Below are positions 5,197 through 40,924 of a DNA stretch of 45,815 nt, piece after piece (position 1 is the stretch's first letter; each line of letters opens with the position of its first letter). The stretch spans positions 1-45,815 of the forward strand of contig JAFDGA010000015.1 in NCBI GenBank assembly GCA_019309545.1, given 5' to 3'. Source of the stretch: Deltaproteobacteria bacterium (GTDB lineage: Bacteria; Desulfobacterota; Desulfobaccia; Desulfobaccales; Desulfobaccaceae). The notes below the pieces were generated by a model. The model saw only the letters and a program-made list of their open reading frames with translations. It made no database searches and was not told where the DNA came from. The position numbers were made by a program, and so were the translations under genes.

Positions 5197-5243
5197 TATA
5201 CTTCTCTTTATTGGCGATAATGGCGCTGAGCTTTGAGAACCAC

Positions 5244-6536
5244 ATGGCAGAAGTGATCGAATCAGTTATCTGCACGGGTTGCGGTTGTTTATGCGACGAT
5301 CTGGACGTCACGCTCGAAGGCAATCAGATTATCGAGGTGGCCAATGTCTGTCTCTGGGGGGTCAACAGATTCATTGCCAGCAAAAAATTCCATTCCAAAA
5401 AGGACCGCCGCCGCATCCTTTCCCCGCAGCTCCGACGCAAAGGGCGGGCCATGGCGGTATCTTACGAATCCGCCTTGGAAGAGGCCGCCAATATTTTAGT
5501 CCAGGCCCGCCGTCCCCTGATCTATGGCCTTACCAATAATGGTTCCTGGGCCCAGGAGGCGGCCCTTAAACTGGCCTGTCGCTGGCAGGCCCGGCTGGAA
5601 CCGGCGGATCTGCCTTTTATGGCCCCCTATTTTGAGGCTCTGAGCAATCATGGGCTATACTGGACGCCTTTGGAAGAAATCCGGGATGAGGCAGATACCA
5701 TCTTATTCTGGGGGGGCAACCCGATACATTCCTGCCCCCGGCATGTGGTGCGCTATTCGGTGTTTAGCCGGGGGCGGTTCATCGAACGCGGAATAGAAGA
5801 ACGACAGGTAGCCGCCGTGGATATCTATCCCACCGAGACCGCCAAATTCTGTAAGCCTTTCATCCAAATCGACCCGGGACAGGAACTGGATCTGATCAAG
5901 GGGGTAATCGCTGCCTTGACCGATGGATCAGACCCCCCGGCCCGGATTAAAGGAACCCGGAAGCTGGCTAAGTTGCTCTCCGAAGCCAGCTATGGGGTGA
6001 TCTTTGTGGGCCGCGGGGCTAGCTACGGTCCGGCCCGAGAACTTCTCGATCACCTGGCCCGGCTGGTCGTCTGGCTCAATAAGCGGGTGCCATTTACCTT
6101 GTTTCCCCTGGCCAGCGATTTCAATGCCAGCGGCCTTTATCAACTGCTGCTGCGGGAAACCGGCAGTCCCTACGCCCCAGATTTCGGGGACTCCTCGGGT
6201 TTTGCCAGTCATTCTGTCCGGGTGGACTTGCGCGAGGTGGACGCTTTGCTGGTAACCGGCGCTGATCTGTTCTGGTTTTTACCCGAGGACCAGGCCCAGG
6301 AGCTCAAACGCCGGCAGGTGCCGATTGTGGCTCTGTCCCCCTTTGCCAACCGGACCACGGCCCAGGCCCAGGTAGTGTTTCCTGTAGCCTTGGCCGGCAT
6401 TGAAACCGAAGAGATCGCCTATCGCATGGATGGCCTACCGGTGGAATTACCCAGGCTGATTTCCAGCCGTTTCCGGTCTGACCACCAGGTTCTGGCAGAC
6501 CTGGAACAGGCTCTGACCGGTAGGTCAAGAGATTAA
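5244..6536 (+). CDS. FwdB-like protein (formylmethanofuran dehydrogenase subunit B homologue), metal ligand missing
   Basis: About 430 aa, close to the length of archaeal FwdB, a molybdopterin-family catalytic subunit. Cys10, Cys13, Cys17 and Cys36 reproduce the FwdB N-terminal [4Fe-4S] spacing (CTGCGCLCDD, then NVC). Later blocks also match, for example FWGGNP, PRHVVRYSVFSRG and the C-terminal ETEEIAYRMDGLPV. By my remembered alignment, archaeal CHGP, which contains the W/Mo ligand Cys/Sec, corresponds here to Phe125-Met-Ala-Pro128 with no gap up to the next conserved block. The pterin metal ligand is therefore probably absent, and no FwdD (rest of the pterin site) or FwdC follows. I start at 5244 because that places the first Cys where the family has it; ATG 5220 and TTG 5211 are alternatives. 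First gene of the cluster. Confidence 0.85.
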   Translation: MAEVIESVICTGCGCLCDDLDVTLEGNQIIEVANVCLWGVNRFIASKKFHSKKDRRRILSPQLRRKGRAMAVSYESALEEAANILVQARRPLIYGLTNNGSWAQEAALKLACRWQARLEPADLPFMAPYFEALSNHGLYWTPLEEIRDEADTILFWGGNPIHSCPRHVVRYSVFSRGRFIERGIEERQVAAVDIYPTETAKFCKPFIQIDPGQELDLIKGVIAALTDGSDPPARIKGTRKLAKLLSEASYGVIFVGRGASYGPARELLDHLARLVVWLNKRVPFTLFPLASDFNASGLYQLLLRETGSPYAPDFGDSSGFASHSVRVDLREVDALLVTGADLFWFLPEDQAQELKRRQVPIVALSPFANRTTAQAQVVFPVALAGIETEEIAYRMDGLPVELPRLISSRFRSDHQVLADLEQALTGRSRD

Positions 6537-6599: not shown

Positions 6600-7127
6600 A
6601 TGACTGAAACCACCGGAACAAATCCTGTGGTGCGCCTGGAGACGACTATGGGGCCGATTAAAGCGGAATTATGGCCTGATAAAGCCCCTATAACGGTGGC
6701 CAATTTTTTGACCTATGTCAAAGAAGGGTTTTATGACGGCCTCATTTTTCACCGGGCCACTCCCATGTTTATGGTGCAAACCGGCGGTTTTGAGCCGGGC
6801 ATGGTCTATCGGCCGCCGACGCACCCGCCGATTGATAATGAAGCGGCCAACGGTGAGAAGAACAAACGGGGTACTCTGGCAATGGCCAGGGCTTTTCCCA
6901 TTAAAAGCGCCGCGGCCCAATTCTTTATTAATCTAGTCGATAATCCGAAACTGGATCATAAGGGGCCTGAGCCACAAAACTATGGCTATGCCGTGTTTGG
7001 CCAGGTCATTGAGGGCATGGGAACGGTGGAACGGATGACCACGGTCAAGTTAACGGTTCGGGAAAACCATAAAGATGTCCCCCTGGAAGATATCAAGCTT
7101 ATCCGGGCTATAGTAGAGCAAGAGTGA
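6600..7127 (+). CDS. Cyclophilin-type peptidyl-prolyl cis-trans isomerase
   Basis: Cytoplasmic prolyl isomerase of 175 aa with no signal peptide. The cyclophilin core is visible: FHRATPMFMVQTGGF carries the catalytic Arg and the Gln/Gly pocket. It is followed by RGTLAMAR, AAAQFFINLVDNPKLD and YAVFGQVIEGM. It is preceded by a strong AAAGGAGG ribosome site. It lies between the fwdB-like and fwdA-like genes on the same strand, with gaps of about 60 and 80 bp. That placement could mean help in folding the complex or could be accidental. No active-site loss is evident. Confidence 0.93.
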   Translation: MTETTGTNPVVRLETTMGPIKAELWPDKAPITVANFLTYVKEGFYDGLIFHRATPMFMVQTGGFEPGMVYRPPTHPPIDNEAANGEKNKRGTLAMARAFPIKSAAAQFFINLVDNPKLDHKGPEPQNYGYAVFGQVIEGMGTVERMTTVKLTVRENHKDVPLEDIKLIRAIVEQE

Positions 7128-7210: not shown

Positions 7211-8587
7211 ATGATGCGTCTCAAAATTGCTCAAGGTCGCCTGTATGATCCCACCCAGGGTTGGGAGGGGGAGGTGGGAGATCTTTATGTCGAGGGAGAT
7301 CGCATCGTTGCTCCCCTACCAGAAGTAGATCGAGTCATCGATGCTCAGGGACAGATGGTGGTAGCCGGGGGGATTGAGCTGCGCGGCCAGGTCGCCACTT
7401 ATGGCCTGAATTATTTACGTTTGTGGGGCTTGTTGCCATCTGCCCGGGAAATCGGCGAATTATATGCCTCACTGGGATTTACTCATGTCCATGAGCCCTT
7501 TTTGACCTTATATACCGCTAAGTATACCCATCGTGAACTGGCAGCGCTGCCGGTAGTTGACACTTCGGCATCCTTAACCCTGAATATCCGCGACCTGGAT
7601 AAATGGCTACGATTACCGGAACAATTAGGCGAGGTGGGTCAGAACCTGCAATTTTTGTTGGAGCAGACCCGTTCCCTGAACCTGCGGATCATGGAGCCGT
7701 ATGTCCGCTTCCGGCAAGACTATTTTGCGCATCGGAACATCCGCACCGAGGAAATTCTGGAGATTCTGGCCACACTGGCGCAGTCGCATAACCTTACCCT
7801 GACTCTGGAGGCCAGTCCGGGGATTATACGCCTGCCACTACCAGCGCCAACCGCATTCCATCTTGCCGCTCTGGGTCCGGCCCTAATTGAAGATGATCTG
7901 GTCGAGGCAACCCTGGGACATCTGGAAAAAGGAACTACGGTGGATTTAGGACTGATGCCACCGAAAGGTTCACAGAATTTTGCCAACCTGCCGGTTCAGA
8001 TCAATCTGGGATTCTTTCATCCTTTAAACCTTTGTCCCCCCCATTCCCCGGCCGCGGCTCAGCGGGCTTTAGTTCTGGCCTTGAAATATCAAGGGACAAA
8101 TCTGGCCTTTTCCGGCGCGGGCTCCTTCCTGACCCCAATAAGTCAATATTCTCGGATCTTTTCGTGGCTGGCAGACCAGGGCGCCCGTCGGCAGGATTGG
8201 GGAGACAGCCTGCCTTCCCGTGAATATTCGCTGGCCGAATGGGTCAGGATGACGCGGACCTTACCGGCCCAACTATTAGGTCTTACGGAGCGCGGCCATC
8301 TCGGTGTCGGGGCTCGGGCTGATATCGCCGTCTATGACCTGCCCGGAGCCGATAAACGGATCAATTGGGGCCAGTCCTTGAGCCGTTGCCGGTTTTTGCT
8401 TAAGGCCGGGGAAACAGTGATCGATAATTTTAATCTGGTAAAGCCTGAAATCTCCAAGGCTACCTATTATCTTCAGACCGGCATCGAAGCCAGTCCCTGG
8501 CTAAAGGAGGTTTGTCAATATCGCAGTTTTCGTCTGGAAAACCTCTGGGTTCATGACCACCTAGGGAACCACTGGATAGGGATCTGA
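7211..8587 (+). CDS. FwdA-like amidohydrolase-fold protein with degenerate metal site
   Basis: About 458 aa, shorter than archaeal FwdA (about 570 aa). Family blocks are recognisable: GGIELRGQVA near 53-62, THVHEPFLTLYTAKYTHREL, and the C-terminal LLGLTERGHLGVGARADIAVYD. In FwdA the dinuclear metal site uses an HxH, a carboxylated Lys, further His residues and an Asp. Here the HxH positions are Arg58 and Gln60. The Lys of IKLVNP is Arg in LRIMEP, the HLHCNN block is TLTLEA, and the TDHPNG block is FSGAGS. These pairings are my manual alignment. Hydrolysis of formylmethanofuran is therefore unlikely, and a scaffold or altered role is more plausible. The start is uncertain by one codon (ATGATG). 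Its stop lies 2 bp before the next gene. Confidence 0.82.
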   Translation: MMRLKIAQGRLYDPTQGWEGEVGDLYVEGDRIVAPLPEVDRVIDAQGQMVVAGGIELRGQVATYGLNYLRLWGLLPSAREIGELYASLGFTHVHEPFLTLYTAKYTHRELAALPVVDTSASLTLNIRDLDKWLRLPEQLGEVGQNLQFLLEQTRSLNLRIMEPYVRFRQDYFAHRNIRTEEILEILATLAQSHNLTLTLEASPGIIRLPLPAPTAFHLAALGPALIEDDLVEATLGHLEKGTTVDLGLMPPKGSQNFANLPVQINLGFFHPLNLCPPHSPAAAQRALVLALKYQGTNLAFSGAGSFLTPISQYSRIFSWLADQGARRQDWGDSLPSREYSLAEWVRMTRTLPAQLLGLTERGHLGVGARADIAVYDLPGADKRINWGQSLSRCRFLLKAGETVIDNFNLVKPEISKATYYLQTGIEASPWLKEVCQYRSFRLENLWVHDHLGNHWIGI

Positions 8588-8589
8588 TA

Positions 8590-9045
8590 ATGGCCACGGT
8601 CGAGGAAGTCCTGGAATTTCTCCCCCGCACTGATTGTGGACAGTGTGGCATGACCTGTGCTGAATTCGCCGCTCTTTTGGTGTCGAGGGATTTATCCCCG
8701 GAAGACTGTCCGGTGCTGCATGAACCCGATTATGCCGGATATATCGAGGCCCTCCATGAGATCCTTGGGCCAGCCGAAGCGGCTCCGACCGCGGGGATGC
8801 TTATTGACCAGGACAAATGCAATGGCTGTGGCATCTGTGTGGCAGTATGCGAATATCACTTGGGCAACTGTGATGAGGCCCGTTTAGGCCGGGGTCCCCG
8901 ACCTCAGGATAAGGTAGTTTTCCATGTGGTCAATGGCACGGTGGTGGTGGTCCACCAGGATCTTTGTTCCCGCTTAATCCAAGCTGCCGAAAGGTGCAAC
9001 AAGTGCGCCGACCATTGCCCGGTCGGAGCCATCACCTTGTTTTAA
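8590..9045 (+). CDS. Iron-sulfur protein: PF04060-type [4Fe-4S] domain plus ferredoxin domain
   Basis: Electron carrier of 151 aa. The N-terminal module resembles the 4Fe-4S domain (PF04060) also seen in corrinoid/acetyl-CoA-synthase and RnfB proteins, with Cys16, Cys19, Cys23 and Cys40. The first gap is C-x2-C-x3-C rather than the more usual x4. The C-terminal part is a two-cluster ferredoxin: Cys77, Cys80, Cys83, Cys87, and Cys126, Cys136, Cys139, Cys143 (CNGCGICVAVC; CNKCADHCPVGAI). The start is 2 bp after the fwdA-like stop, so translation is probably coupled. It occupies the position where FwdF/FwdG polyferredoxins occur in archaeal operons. I infer that it passes electrons between the Fwd-like and Hdr-like proteins. 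Confidence 0.85.
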   Translation: MATVEEVLEFLPRTDCGQCGMTCAEFAALLVSRDLSPEDCPVLHEPDYAGYIEALHEILGPAEAAPTAGMLIDQDKCNGCGICVAVCEYHLGNCDEARLGRGPRPQDKVVFHVVNGTVVVVHQDLCSRLIQAAERCNKCADHCPVGAITLF

Positions 9046-9059
9046 ATTTAGGGATCAAC

Positions 9060-9551
9060 ATGGCTGAGACCTTAGATATTCAAGCTCTGGACCCGCATTT
9101 TAAAGATGAGGTGGCCCAGGAACCCGGATGCGAGCATCTGCTGCGCTGCTTTTCCTGTGGGGTCTGTACCGCTACCTGTCCGGTTAGTGAGATCGAGCCC
9201 AGCTTTAGTCCCAGCCGGATTATCAGGCAGGTCCTTTACGGTCTGCGAGAGCCGCTCCTCTCCTCCCCGGCCCTCTGGTATTGTGCCCGTTGTGCCAATT
9301 GCTCTTTTCAGTGCCCTCAGGATGTCAGGTTTTTGGATATTATACAGGGTTTGCGGAATATGGCCCGGCGTAGCGGCCAGATTAGCGAGGAGCGGGCTGC
9401 CCAGCTGGCCCGGGGCGAGGAGTTGATTCAGGAACTCAGGCGGCGATTCATAGCCGCCATCCTTTCCGGACCTAAGGAAGCAGAAGATCTCAAGGCCACC
9501 CTGATCCAACTGGCCTCGGAATTGGACATCAATGAAGGAAAGGAGCCGTAG
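9060..9551 (+). CDS. HdrC-like iron-sulfur subunit
   Basis: 163-aa homologue of heterodisulfide reductase subunit C (also QmoC/GlpC-like), an electron-transfer subunit with two [4Fe-4S] clusters. Both cysteine sets are complete: Cys30, 33, 36, 40 (CFSCGVCTATCP) and Cys75, 78, 81, 85 (CARCANCSFQCP). There is no membrane segment, so unlike QmoC it is soluble. I start at the ATG 9060, 15 bp after the previous stop; the longer frame overlaps that gene and adds nothing conserved. HdrC normally pairs with HdrB, whose CCG-motif cysteine domains are not found in this window, so the terminal acceptor is unclear. Confidence 0.93.
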   Translation: MAETLDIQALDPHFKDEVAQEPGCEHLLRCFSCGVCTATCPVSEIEPSFSPSRIIRQVLYGLREPLLSSPALWYCARCANCSFQCPQDVRFLDIIQGLRNMARRSGQISEERAAQLARGEELIQELRRRFIAAILSGPKEAEDLKATLIQLASELDINEGKEP

Positions 9552-9557
9552 ACTTAC

Positions 9558-12500
9558 ATGGCCTGGATCCGGCCATTAGAGCGAGTCGTCAGTCCGCGGG
9601 TGCTGGTTGTCGGCGGGGGCATCGCCGGCATGCAGGCCGCCCTGGATGTGGCCAAGGTAGGGCTACCAGTGACGCTGGTCGAACAAGGCCCTTCCATCGG
9701 CGGACTTATGGCCCAACTGGACAAAACTTTCCCTACCAACGATTGTGCCATGTGTATTCTCTCCCCCCGCATGCTGGAGATCGCCCGCCACCCCTTGATT
9801 GAGATTCTGACCTTGACCCAGGTCGTGCAAATCCAGGGAAGGCCCGGAGATTTTCAGGTAGTTTTATGCCGTCGGCCGCGTTTTGTGGACCTCAGCAAAT
9901 GTTCTGGGTGTGGAGAGTGTACCCGGGTCTGTCCCCGCCGCATCCCGGACCCCTATAATCTGGGTCTCAACCAGACCAAAGCTATCCATGTGCCCTTTCC
10001 TCAGGCGGTCCCATTAGCCGCTTATATCATACCCGAAGCCTGCCGTTATTTTGAGGGCAAGAAATGCGAAGCCTGCATCAAGGTTTGCCAGGCCGGAGCC
10101 ATTGATCTTCATCAGACCCCAGAAATTTTGGTTCAGCAATTTGGGGCTGTCATCCTGGCCACCGGGGTTGGCGTAGCCCCGGCGGATAATTTTCCGGGTT
10201 ATGAAAACCCTGACGTGGTCACCAGCCAGGAATTTGAACGCCTCCTGAGCGCCACCGGTCCGCATGCCGGGAAGTTGCTGCGGCCTTCCGATCAGACCCC
10301 ACCAGGCCGCATTGCCTTTATTCAATGCGTCGGCTCCCGCGACCCCAGAGAAGGAGTAGCCCACTGTTCGGCCGTATGTTGCATGGCCAGTCTCAAAGAG
10401 GCACTGGTGGCCAAAGAGATCAGCGCCACCGAAGTTCAGGCGACCATCTTTTATATGGACATCCGAACCCATGGCAAAGGCTTTGAACGTTACCTGCAAC
10501 AGGCTCAAGACCATGGCGTGCAATTAATCCGCTCCCGGGTGACGGCCGTTGGTCCCCGGCCTCAAGGTGGCGTGGTGATCCGCTATACCGACCCCGGCGG
10601 GCGGCCCGATGAAGACTCGTTTGATCTGGCCGTGTTGGCGGTGGGTTTAAGGCCAACGGCAAGTTCCAGACAATGGGTCCGCCGGTTGGGAATGGGTCTC
10701 AATGAATCCGGCTTTATCAAGACCTCGCTCCTGGTTCCAACCACTACAGAGCGGGAAGGAGTATTTATCTGTGGTACGGCCAGTGGGCCCATGGATATCC
10801 CCGAAGCGGTTACGTCGGCCAGTGCCAGCGCCGCCGCGGCTTCACAATTATTGACCCTAGGTGTACGGACCCGGCCTGCTAAAGCCAAATTGCCCGGACC
10901 CCGCCGTGTTGCTGATTATCCTCCCCGGATCGGAGTTTTTCTCTGCCATTGTGGCACCAATATTGCCAAAGTTATCGATATCGGAAAATTAGCCACGGCG
11001 GTTGAAAAGCTGCCCGCTGTGGTCCATGTCGAAGACAACCTGTTTACCTGTTCGGTTGATTCTACCAAGCGGATGAGCGAAACCATCCGGGATTTAGGAC
11101 TCAATAGGGTCGTGGTGGCCGCTTGCACCCCCCGGACCCACGAGGTGGTATTCCGGGAGGTCCTGGCTGAGGCCGGCCTTAATCCGGGCTATTTTGCCTT
11201 TGCCAATATCCGGGAACAGTGCTCCTGGGTGCACCAGGATGACCAAGCCGCAGCCCTTCATAAGGCCGAACACGTGGTGGCCATGGCCGTCGGTCGAGCC
11301 TGGATGCTGACCCCGATTCAACCCCAAGGCTTCCCGGTGAATCCCAAGGCCCTGGTCCTGGGAGGCGGGGTGGCTGGGATGAGTGCGGCCCTGACATTAG
11401 GCGATCAAGGATTTCACACTTATTTGCTGGAGCGCAGCCGAGATTTAGGAGGAATAGCGCGACAATTACATTTCACCTTGGAAGGCGCAGACCCGCAAAA
11501 GTTTTTACAGGAACTGAAGGCCGAAGTCTACCGCCATCCCAATGTTGAGGTCTTAACCCAGACCGAAGCGGTTCAGGTTAATGGGCATGTCGGGCAATTC
11601 CAGACCTTGGTGCGCCAACAAACCGCGGCGGGACCGCTGAAACGTTGGTTGGATCACGGAGTTACGATCGTGGCCACCGGAGGTAGAGTATTTAATCCCC
11701 AGGGGCGCTATCTTTACGGCACCGACCCGCGCATTCTCACCCAACTGGAGTTGGAGGCCCGGATTAAGGCTAATGATCCCCAGTTGGAAAAGGTCCGGCA
11801 GGTGGTGATGATCCAATGTGTGGGCTCTCGAGAACCCGAACATCCCTATTGCAGCCGGATCTGTTGTTCTGAGGCCCTAAAAAACGCCCTCCTGTTAAAA
11901 GAGCGCTATCCTTTGACAGAAGTCATGATTCTTTATCGAGATCTCCGGGCTTATGGCCTCCAAGAGATTTATTATCAAGATGCCAAACAGCAGGGTGTGG
12001 AGTTTATTCCCTTTGACCCGAAACGACCCCCACAGTTAGAGATTACCAAACGCCGGCAACTCAAGCTCTTAATCAGGGATGAACTCCTGGACCAAGAACT
12101 GAGCCTGAGCGCCGATCTGGTGATCTTGAGTGTCGGGATTGAGCCGGCGGTAGGCAGTGACCAAGTAGCCCGACTCCTGGGACTATCCCAGACCCTGGAA
12201 GGTTTCTTCCTGGAGGCCCATCAGAAATTGCGTCCTGTCGATGTGATTAGCGAGGGCATCTTTTTGTGCGGCCTGGCCCATTATCCCAAGACCCTGGGAG
12301 AAACGGTAGCCCAGGCCCAGGCCGCGGCCATCCGCGCTGCCAGTATTTTGTTTCAAACCGAACTGCTCAGTGGTGAGATGGCCGCCTCGATTACTACCGG
12401 CAAATGCCGACGCTGTCTGCACTGTCTGGAAGTGTGCCCCTTTAAAGCGGTGGGGCTGGAGGCTAACGGTAAACCTACGATCCAAACCGAAGTCTGTCAG

Positions 12501-12605
12501 GGCTGCGGAATTTGCGCCTCTGAATGTCCGGCTGAGGCCATTCAGATGAGCCGCATTTCCGATGCGGAATTGGAGGCCCAGATCGATGCGGCTTTAATGG
12601 CCTGA
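9558..12605 (+). CDS. Large HdrA-like flavoprotein with two FAD modules
   Basis: 1015 aa, about twice the core HdrA/QmoA unit. Module 1 (about 1-450) has Rossmann motif VVGGGIAGMQAA (18-29), the family pair Cys63/Cys66, a ferredoxin set at Cys115, 118, 121, 125, and Cys162, 170, 173, 177. Module 2 starts near 455 with the canonical HdrA N-terminal domain (FLCHCGTNIA, FTCSVDS, ACTPRTHE, REQCSWVH). A second FAD domain follows (LGGGVAGMSAAL, about 599-610), and the C-terminal 2[4Fe-4S] ferredoxin lies near 949-995. HdrA is the flavin subunit that bifurcates electrons in methanogens, and Qmo proteins serve sulfate reduction. The N-terminal half resembles QmoA and the rest canonical HdrA. The ATG lies 6 bp after hdrC. 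Predicted cytoplasmic. Confidence 0.95.
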   Translation: MAWIRPLERVVSPRVLVVGGGIAGMQAALDVAKVGLPVTLVEQGPSIGGLMAQLDKTFPTNDCAMCILSPRMLEIARHPLIEILTLTQVVQIQGRPGDFQVVLCRRPRFVDLSKCSGCGECTRVCPRRIPDPYNLGLNQTKAIHVPFPQAVPLAAYIIPEACRYFEGKKCEACIKVCQAGAIDLHQTPEILVQQFGAVILATGVGVAPADNFPGYENPDVVTSQEFERLLSATGPHAGKLLRPSDQTPPGRIAFIQCVGSRDPREGVAHCSAVCCMASLKEALVAKEISATEVQATIFYMDIRTHGKGFERYLQQAQDHGVQLIRSRVTAVGPRPQGGVVIRYTDPGGRPDEDSFDLAVLAVGLRPTASSRQWVRRLGMGLNESGFIKTSLLVPTTTEREGVFICGTASGPMDIPEAVTSASASAAAASQLLTLGVRTRPAKAKLPGPRRVADYPPRIGVFLCHCGTNIAKVIDIGKLATAVEKLPAVVHVEDNLFTCSVDSTKRMSETIRDLGLNRVVVAACTPRTHEVVFREVLAEAGLNPGYFAFANIREQCSWVHQDDQAAALHKAEHVVAMAVGRAWMLTPIQPQGFPVNPKALVLGGGVAGMSAALTLGDQGFHTYLLERSRDLGGIARQLHFTLEGADPQKFLQELKAEVYRHPNVEVLTQTEAVQVNGHVGQFQTLVRQQTAAGPLKRWLDHGVTIVATGGRVFNPQGRYLYGTDPRILTQLELEARIKANDPQLEKVRQVVMIQCVGSREPEHPYCSRICCSEALKNALLLKERYPLTEVMILYRDLRAYGLQEIYYQDAKQQGVEFIPFDPKRPPQLEITKRRQLKLLIRDELLDQELSLSADLVILSVGIEPAVGSDQVARLLGLSQTLEGFFLEAHQKLRPVDVISEGIFLCGLAHYPKTLGETVAQAQAAAIRAASILFQTELLSGEMAASITTGKCRRCLHCLEVCPFKAVGLEANGKPTIQTEVCQGCGICASECPAEAIQMSRISDAELEAQIDAALMA

Positions 12606-12617
12606 ACCGGAGGGAAA

Positions 12618-13037
12618 ATGATACGAGAAAGTTATTGTGGCCTGTGCGATGACTGTCAGTTAGGGAACCGTGATTTCCTAGAGAGCGTCGCTCAGTTGAA
12701 GGAATATGTAGATCAGTTCCGGGCTGACTGGTGGGTGCATTGTTTTCCCGATGGAGAGGGATTCAGTTTTGCTGAATTTCGCAAAGGTATCAACTGGTTT
12801 TTGTCACATACGGAATGCCCCGGGTGCAAGGGCGGACGAGGATTAGAAAATTGCCCCATCCGCATCTGTGCCCGGCAGCGTCATATCGAGCACTGCTACG
12901 AATGCCCGGACCTCAAAGGCTGTGACAAATTCGATCACCTCCTCATTGAATTTCCGGACCTAAAAATTAATCTCCTGCGGCGCCAGTTAAAGTATAAAGC
13001 ATGTCAGTACCATCGGCACCTGGACCAAGCCAAGTAG
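12618..13037 (+). CDS. DUF3795 cysteine-rich protein
   Basis: 139-aa protein of the DUF3795 family, function unknown. It has the family pattern YCGLCDDC at the N-terminus and CPIRICARQRHIEHCYECPDLKGCDKF in the C-terminal half, with thirteen or so cysteines that could bind metal or a cluster. A GGAGGG ribosome site precedes the ATG, and the gene begins 12 bp after hdrA, so it is the last member of the cluster. The context suggests a role in maturing or regulating the iron-sulfur complex, but nothing in the sequence proves it. Confidence 0.85.
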   Translation: MIRESYCGLCDDCQLGNRDFLESVAQLKEYVDQFRADWWVHCFPDGEGFSFAEFRKGINWFLSHTECPGCKGGRGLENCPIRICARQRHIEHCYECPDLKGCDKFDHLLIEFPDLKINLLRRQLKYKACQYHRHLDQAK

Positions 13038-40117: not shown

Positions 40118-40924
40118 TCAAGGGCTGAGCCGCGCTATGAGCTTTTCTACCAGAAACAGGGTGGATTCCAGGTCTAGATAGGAGCTGATCTGGGCATCGA
40201 ACAGCAGATGCGTCTGGGCCACAAATCCTTCCGCGGCATCGGCTTCATAAAACATTAGCAATATCGGCACCCGCGGCAGCGGCCAGAAGACGAGCGCCAC
40301 ATCGGCGGTCGTCACCTGGGAAGCTGGTTTAGCTCCCAGGGCCGCGGCCTGTGATTGCAAATGCTCCACCTGGCCGGTAATTTGGGCTGCCAACCCCTCC
40401 TCCAGGCGCTTCTGGGTCTTGACTTTGGAGACTGAATTGGGCAGATCCTGAAAAGTAATCCACTTGCCGGTAGGAAGCTGCTGGCCCTGGGAGGCAATAT
40501 AATTGTAGAGCAGGATGGCGTCCCAGGGATCTTCGGAAACCTCCGGGGGATAACGCAGTTCATCTTTAAATACCTGCAGGGGCTGGCCAAAGTAAGGGAT
40601 GATTAAATAGGGTCTGCCATCCTCTTGGCTGTAATCAGCCCCCAATCCCGGCGCCAGCGCGGCAAAATCGAGGGGCGCTACTTTCTCATGCAAGGCCTCG
40701 GCGGCAATGGCCACTGATTCCCGGCGTCGGCTAATGCCTGTCTCTTGCTGGGTTTTTATGGTTTGCGCCAACTCTCGCCCCCGGGCCGACAGATGGTGAC
40801 ATTTTTCCAGATCTTCGCCTTCTTTGATAACCGCGGTGGCAAAGGCCAGACAGCTCTTATGGCCGCACTCTCCGCAATTGCTCTGGGGTAGGACTTTAAA
40901 AACATCGAGTACCGAAAGTGCCAT
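40118..40924 (-). CDS. DUF3786 protein with N-terminal PF04060 [4Fe-4S] domain
   Basis: 268 aa. The N-terminus has the cluster ligands Cys17, Cys20, Cys25 and Cys42 (SNCGECGHKSCLAFATAV, then KCHHL), like the module in the Fwd/Hdr-like cluster but with the usual x4 spacing. The remaining 200 residues (YLIIPYFGQPLQVFKDELRYPPE; WDAILLYNYIASQGQQLPTGKWITFQDLPN) match DUF3786, a family of unknown function common in anaerobes. It starts 17 bp after the universal stress protein on the same strand. Confidence 0.85.
   Translation of the reverse strand: MALSVLDVFKVLPQSNCGECGHKSCLAFATAVIKEGEDLEKCHHLSARGRELAQTIKTQQETGISRRRESVAIAAEALHEKVAPLDFAALAPGLGADYSQEDGRPYLIIPYFGQPLQVFKDELRYPPEVSEDPWDAILLYNYIASQGQQLPTGKWITFQDLPNSVSKVKTQKRLEEGLAAQITGQVEHLQSQAAALGAKPASQVTTADVALVFWPLPRVPILLMFYEADAAEGFVAQTHLLFDAQISSYLDLESTLFLVEKLIARLSP

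Follow-up and report, generated by a model that had tools for sequence, protein, structure and literature searches.

A FwdB-like protein without its metal ligand in an HdrA-linked gene module of Desulfobacterota

The locus and its FwdB-like protein

Following the forward strand of the window (the whole stretch of 45,815 nucleotides that was analysed), we see a run of genes that opens with a FwdB-like protein of 430 aa lacking the metal ligand (‘FwdB*’; 5244..6536, +), identified by the TIGR03129 profile, phmmer, MAFFT alignment and tree placement. A cyclophilin-type peptidyl-prolyl isomerase (6600..7127, +), found at this point in some relatives only, separates it from a FwdA-like protein of 458 aa (‘FwdA*’; 7211..8587, +). 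Beyond these lie FeS151, a 151-aa Fe-S protein carrying PF04060 and two ferredoxin-type motifs (8590..9045, +); an HdrC-like protein with two [4Fe-4S] motifs (9054..9551, +), assigned by profile match and cysteine conservation; HdrA1015, a 1015-aa HdrA-type flavoprotein comprising two HdrA-like units and a C-terminal 2x[4Fe-4S] region (9558..12605, +); and a DUF3795 protein (12618..13037, +) that accompanies the module throughout the order. Elsewhere in the window, a 268-aa protein (40118..40924, −) carries an N-terminal CGECGHKSC-type Fe-S motif, similar to the PF04060 part of FeS151.

The host assembly is Desulfobacca-type (2.43 Mb, 99% complete, 96 contigs), with two Desulfobacca MAGs as kin at 80–81% protein identity; it looks like a sulfate reducer, since contig C9 encodes Sat-AprA-QmoABC (read by eye).

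FwdB* occupies the open reading frame 5211..6536 (+), within which the ATG at 5244 gives the residue numbering used in the original prediction. It matches FwdB of M. wolfei (5t5i_B) over its full length (phmmer against PDB chains, E = 2.8e-63), and scores 312.3 bits against TIGR03129; this lies under the curated cut-off of 327.8, a threshold passed by two positive controls, L060, a canonical Desulfobacterota FwdB (526.6 bits), and L037, a sequence from ANME-1 (429.3 bits). As originally predicted, Phe-Met-Ala-Pro stands in place of the W/Mo ligand motif: residues F125-M126-A127-P128 (codons ttt-atg-gcc-ccc; 5616..5627, +) replace Cys118-His-Gly-Pro, the two tetrapeptides being paired without gaps by phmmer against 5t5i_B and again by MAFFT in an alignment of relatives with five PDB FwdBs. 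Sequencing error or misalignment at the motif was considered and rejected, given independent assemblies and ungapped alignments; two further Desulfobacca assemblies (L032, L042) also read FMAP, so Phe125 is not an assembly artefact. A search of the alignment for Cys or Sec at the ligand position found neither in FwdB*, selenocysteine being ruled out as there is no TGA at the site. Nor is any substitute Cys conserved beyond those of the N-terminus: Cys112, Cys164 and Cys203 were checked, residue 112 being Arg in 24 of the 30 clade members described below and position 164 being variable.

The N-terminal cluster site, on the other hand, is exactly as had been claimed. Cys10, Cys13, Cys17 and Cys36 (5271..5351, +) align with the conserved [4Fe-4S] ligands and are present in all FwdB* proteins and in every archaeal FwdB aligned over that part. 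A fifth residue in this stretch, Cys15, occurs in all bacterial relatives and is not diagnostic, because many active archaeal FwdBs have it too.

Residue changes in FwdB* and FwdA*

Inspection of the ligand column across Desulfobacterota homologues, a check that the original prediction had proposed for all bacterial homologues, reveals that the loss is lineage-wide. The clade as we define it holds 30 FwdB* homologues (family groups f1/f2, f40, f13 and f71), none of which retains the ligand Cys; instead they carry FMAP, FKAP, FTAP, LMVP, WKAP, LMAP, LLSS, LLSP, LLTP, LWET, VLEA, LLQA or MLEA. The Cys is also missing from two f3 sequences, whose branch is very long. Every archaeal FwdB aligned keeps it (CH, then G, N or S), as do two Desulfobacterota FwdBs of group f34, in which CHGP is retained; the sampling covers one archaeal phylum besides Desulfobacterota. 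Two loci (L061, L070) encode yet another divergent FwdB-like type near FeS151-like proteins, its ligand site reading CQGK or RQGE; the source genome of L070 carries FwdB* too.

The changes extend well beyond the motif. Seven CHGP-bearing FwdBs served to define invariant positions; among those that none of the 30 members retains are E105, D112, C118, H119, G120, R142, R187, R288 and H290. Two of these, His119 and His290, are described as lying around the metal in FMDs (PMC11656701). His290 (M. wolfei numbering) is replaced by Asp292 (6117..6119, +), an Asp in 30/30, and Ala347-His348 by Trp344-Phe345 (6273..6278, +), with Trp likewise in 30/30 and mostly Phe in the H348 column; these aromatic side chains would be expected to fill the cofactor pocket. 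Part of the core is retained (W156-G157-N159, R166, R170, D193 and R394). Such coherent loss, together with newly fixed residues, fits metallopterin loss, without amounting to proof of it. The gene itself is under purifying selection, with dN/dS of 0.12–0.28 over eight pairs, and on these values pseudogene status was rejected for FwdB*. One relative has an internal TAG in its FwdB* frame (G166, L043 13653–14900), either an error or a pseudogene.

FwdA* is degenerate in its turn, scoring 133 bits against TIGR03121 (cut-off 393). The binuclear metal site of FwdA calls for four His, an Asp and a carboxylysine, a set that FwdA* does not hold: HxH has become R58-G-Q60, the carboxylysine Lys is Arg, the Asp is Ala and a His-rich stretch is deleted, with one His column (L060 His236) still His. 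Across the order to which the window belongs these losses hold, save for isolated exceptions in individual columns. As a control, the FwdA of L060 matches M. wolfei FwdA at E = 6e-151 and has all its metal ligands. At both f34 loci (L060, L068) a canonical CHGP FwdB, of a Desulfobacterota lineage separate from the Cys-less clade, adjoins a full-length FwdA with the complete ligand set.

Group f40 departs from this picture. Its FwdA* proteins (L053, L054, L055, L063, L064 and L076) keep H57, H59, Lys and Asp while their FwdB* partner is without the metal ligand, suggesting that loss of the W/Mo site preceded that of the Zn site. With these residues kept, the f40 A subunit may still bind metal, and f40 may represent an intermediate stage of the complex's decay; outside it, no conserved metal-binding set is found in FwdA*.

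In the 99%-complete host assembly FwdC went unrecognised, a weak GXGXG match being all that turned up, a stand-alone FwdD was not found (PF01568 matching only large open frames of 544–957 codons), and formylmethanofuran formyltransferase (Ftr/FhcD) gave no match. In known FMDs the metallopterin lies at the B–D interface, and in M. extorquens loss of D with loop remodelling removed it (PMC11656701).

Module layout and origin

The electron-transfer genes linked to FwdB* are conserved at their cluster ligands. FeS151 has 12 Cys in 36/36 sequences, giving room for three [4Fe-4S], and a dN/dS of 0.03–0.14; the HdrC-like protein has eight Cys in 22/22 sequences, and nearly all Cys are kept in HdrA1015 (18 sequences). 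The HdrA2 and HdrC profile matches in these linked genes fall below curated equivalog cut-offs.

The neighbourhood is conserved across family groups f1, f2, f71 and f40. It is at its fullest in f71, where eight genes stand together: a FwdF-like polyferredoxin, HdrA-MvhD, a short HdrA, FwdB*, FwdA*, FeS151, HdrC and HdrA1015. Several f2 genomes place the polyferredoxin and HdrA-MvhD after the DUF3795 gene, downstream of HdrA1015; f40 has polyferredoxin, HdrA-MvhD and short HdrA near FeS151-FwdB*-FwdA*; and f13 and f3 bring together only FwdB*-FeS-FwdA*. The window's own genome carries the polyferredoxin, HdrA-MvhD and short HdrA on a separate contig, C14. The polyferredoxin finds its best matches in FwdF (NCBIfam, 4.9e-27; PDB 9sfi_T and 5t5i_F), and co-occurs with FwdB* in 27 of 395 genomes (29 and 33 carriers) against 2.4 expected, a figure uncorrected for relatedness. 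In G080, a FwdB* genome that is 99% complete, no polyferredoxin was matched at E 1e-40. We see no HdrB-type protein in the set of genes conserved in the module, and therefore no obvious terminal substrate site. On C14 (L104 5701–17149) an HdrA-MvhD-MetV-MetF set adjoins the polyferredoxin/HdrA-MvhD/HdrA half in convergent orientation; in the flanks of the relatives examined no MetF/MetV was found, and a link to these genes was dropped as evidence.

In a maximum-likelihood tree built without the columns of the trait, the bacterial Cys-less set groups with the f3 pair inside (96/96) and is sister to a Cys-bearing ANME-1-type clade (98/89; both jointly 100/99), CHGP-bearing bacterial FwdBs being placed elsewhere. 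Transfer from archaea followed by one ligand loss in bacteria would be the simplest reading, although the long branches warn against detail. At L037 9983–12409 the nearest archaeal relative, a Cys-bearing ANME-1 paralogue with a CHN motif, precedes a 366-aa amidohydrolase-like ORF that is not FwdA; this is another FwdB-amidohydrolase pair.

Interpretation and comparison with known systems

The original prediction assigned FwdB* an electron-transfer or structural role rather than formate chemistry, and this is still the best reading, because the pocket residues are replaced and the neighbouring FwdA* is degenerate. We think it probable that FwdB* is a pterin-free, non-catalytic protein of the FwdB/MopB fold which, with FwdA*, makes up a remodelled core within a bacterial Hdr-type complex. 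What we observe directly is the loss of both catalytic residue sets alongside conserved cluster ligands, purifying selection, gene order and co-occurrence. The gene products (FwdF-like polyferredoxin, HdrA-MvhD fusion, short HdrA, FwdB*, FwdA*, FeS151, HdrC and HdrA1015) would then form a physical complex, with the HdrA flavins as the point of entry or exit for electrons and the MvhD domain mediating docking. Electrons would travel via the polyferredoxin, FeS151, HdrC and the one [4Fe-4S] cluster that FwdB* has, without ever reaching CO2 or formate; the FwdB* cluster would act as a relay or docking site between polyferredoxin/FeS151 and the flavin-iron-sulfur parts of HdrA/HdrC. The ancestral route from polyferredoxin to the FwdB cluster would thus be retained as wiring and scaffold, its CO2-reducing and formyl-condensing ends removed, probably in the service of ferredoxin- and flavin-based bifurcation or confurcation in acetate- or C1-oxidising sulfate reducers. 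That the direction and partners of electron flow, and the absence of pterin, are as drawn here is what we infer. Counting against this reading are the location of the polyferredoxin half on another contig in the present genome, the lack of a polyferredoxin match in G080, the reduced FwdB*-FeS-FwdA* arrangement of f13/f3 and the retained FwdA* ligands of f40. The more specific history, in which sulfate reducers acquired an archaeal FMD that then lost both catalytic sites and became the electron-conducting core of a multi-HdrA flavin-bifurcating machine (a bacterial Hdr ‘ghost-Fwd’ complex), is one that we regard as about as likely as not.

Loss of the Cys is not by itself proof of cofactor loss, as AioA and IdrA bind Mo-bisPGD without an amino-acid ligand (PMC10100899). 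FwdB* might in the same manner still bind Mo/W-bisPGD and catalyse another redox reaction, a proposal to which W156, G157, N159, R166 and R170 of the conserved core, all kept, lend some support, as do other large molybdopterin oxidoreductases encoded in the genome, which probably makes the cofactor for that reason. Set against this, replacements affect the whole CHGP loop, R187, R288, H290 and A347/H348, bulky residues having taken the place of the last two, and a stand-alone FwdD-like subunit to cover the cofactor was not found; what carries the argument for cofactor loss is that, beyond the Cys, other pocket residues and FwdD have gone as well, and we regard ligand-free binding as quite unlikely. 

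A working enzyme of another kind, with a new ligand or substrate site in the FwdB pocket or the FwdA barrel, is also unlikely in our view. The invariance of Asp292 and Trp344 over deep divergence is more than plain filler needs, f40 FwdA* retains its H57, H59, Lys and Asp, and the module shows no HdrB-type protein to supply a terminal substrate site; yet the remaining FwdA* proteins are without a conserved metal-binding set and the conserved Cys of FwdB* are the N-terminal ones only. It is very improbable that FwdB*/FwdA* are what is left of an acquired formylmethanofuran dehydrogenase, decaying and functionless. Degeneracy in the two catalytic subunits and an internal stop in one relative (L003/L043) speak for this idea, but the selection data largely refute it; the frames are intact in nearly all of about 30 genomes, the four Cys are invariant and the new residues Asp292 and Trp344 are fixed.

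Were the preferred pterin-free, non-catalytic role correct, FwdB* would add another, separate case in which a MopB fold lost its Mo/W cofactor and became wiring, one for which both a sister lineage in archaea that bears the Cys and a candidate intermediate (f40, its FwdA ligands largely present) are available. It would also urge caution in taking FwdA/FwdB annotation in Desulfobacterota as evidence of formylmethanofuran or CO2 chemistry, and point to a conserved HdrA assembly of sulfate reducers that awaits characterisation. We found no paper describing the module in the open-licence literature; precedents for a non-catalytic role of this sort are FhcB, Nqo3 and a Cys-less archaeal clade associated with HdrA.

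FwdB* resembles FwdB/FmdB (M. wolfei, 5T5I) in its full-length alignment and N-terminal [4Fe-4S] Cys set, and its surroundings resemble those of FMD in having a FwdA-type neighbour, with a FwdF-type polyferredoxin and HdrA in the module. It differs in having no Cys/Sec ligand, in its other replaced site residues and in its sub-threshold TIGR03129 score; unlike FMD, moreover, there is here no recognised FwdC, stand-alone FwdD or formyltransferase. The Hdr-Fwd supercomplex of M. hungatei (7BKB) unites the same gene types, HdrA, polyferredoxin F and FwdA/B, in one assembly. That assembly reduces CO2, whereas the module described here has lost the two Fwd active sites and shows no HdrB.

The parallel drawn at the outset with FhcB (Methylorubrum, 6S6Y) stands in part. 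As a precedent for pterin loss FhcB is valid (PMC11656701, PMC10100899), being a FwdB relative without metallopterin whose D subunit was lost and which serves as scaffold; FwdB*, for which no stand-alone FwdD was found, may be comparable in these respects. It is, however, another kind of inactive relative, because FhcB (6s6y_B, 361 aa) matches only from query residue 71 and appears to be without the N-terminal Fe-S region, the ligands of which FwdB* keeps. The partners differ too: FhcA is an active subunit in a C1 pathway and FwdA* is degenerate, with no FhcD/Ftr match and the FwdC family unrecognised.

Nqo3/NuoG and ActB are likewise MopB subunits acting as wiring or scaffold after the loss of Mo/W-bisPGD, as proposed for FwdB*, albeit on other superfamily branches and in other complexes. 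A Cys-less ‘Molybdop’ clade lies beside type II HdrA-MvhD-FdhB in ANME-2/3, Methanolobus and Methanosarcina (PMC12054007); it too has a MopB fold without the key Cys, and has been proposed as a non-catalytic structural part of an HdrA complex. On a comparison by description only, that clade is archaeal, lies near FdhG/FhcB and is paired with FdhB, while FwdB* is bacterial, nested in FwdB near Cys-bearing ANME-1, and paired with FwdA*, HdrC and the polyferredoxin.
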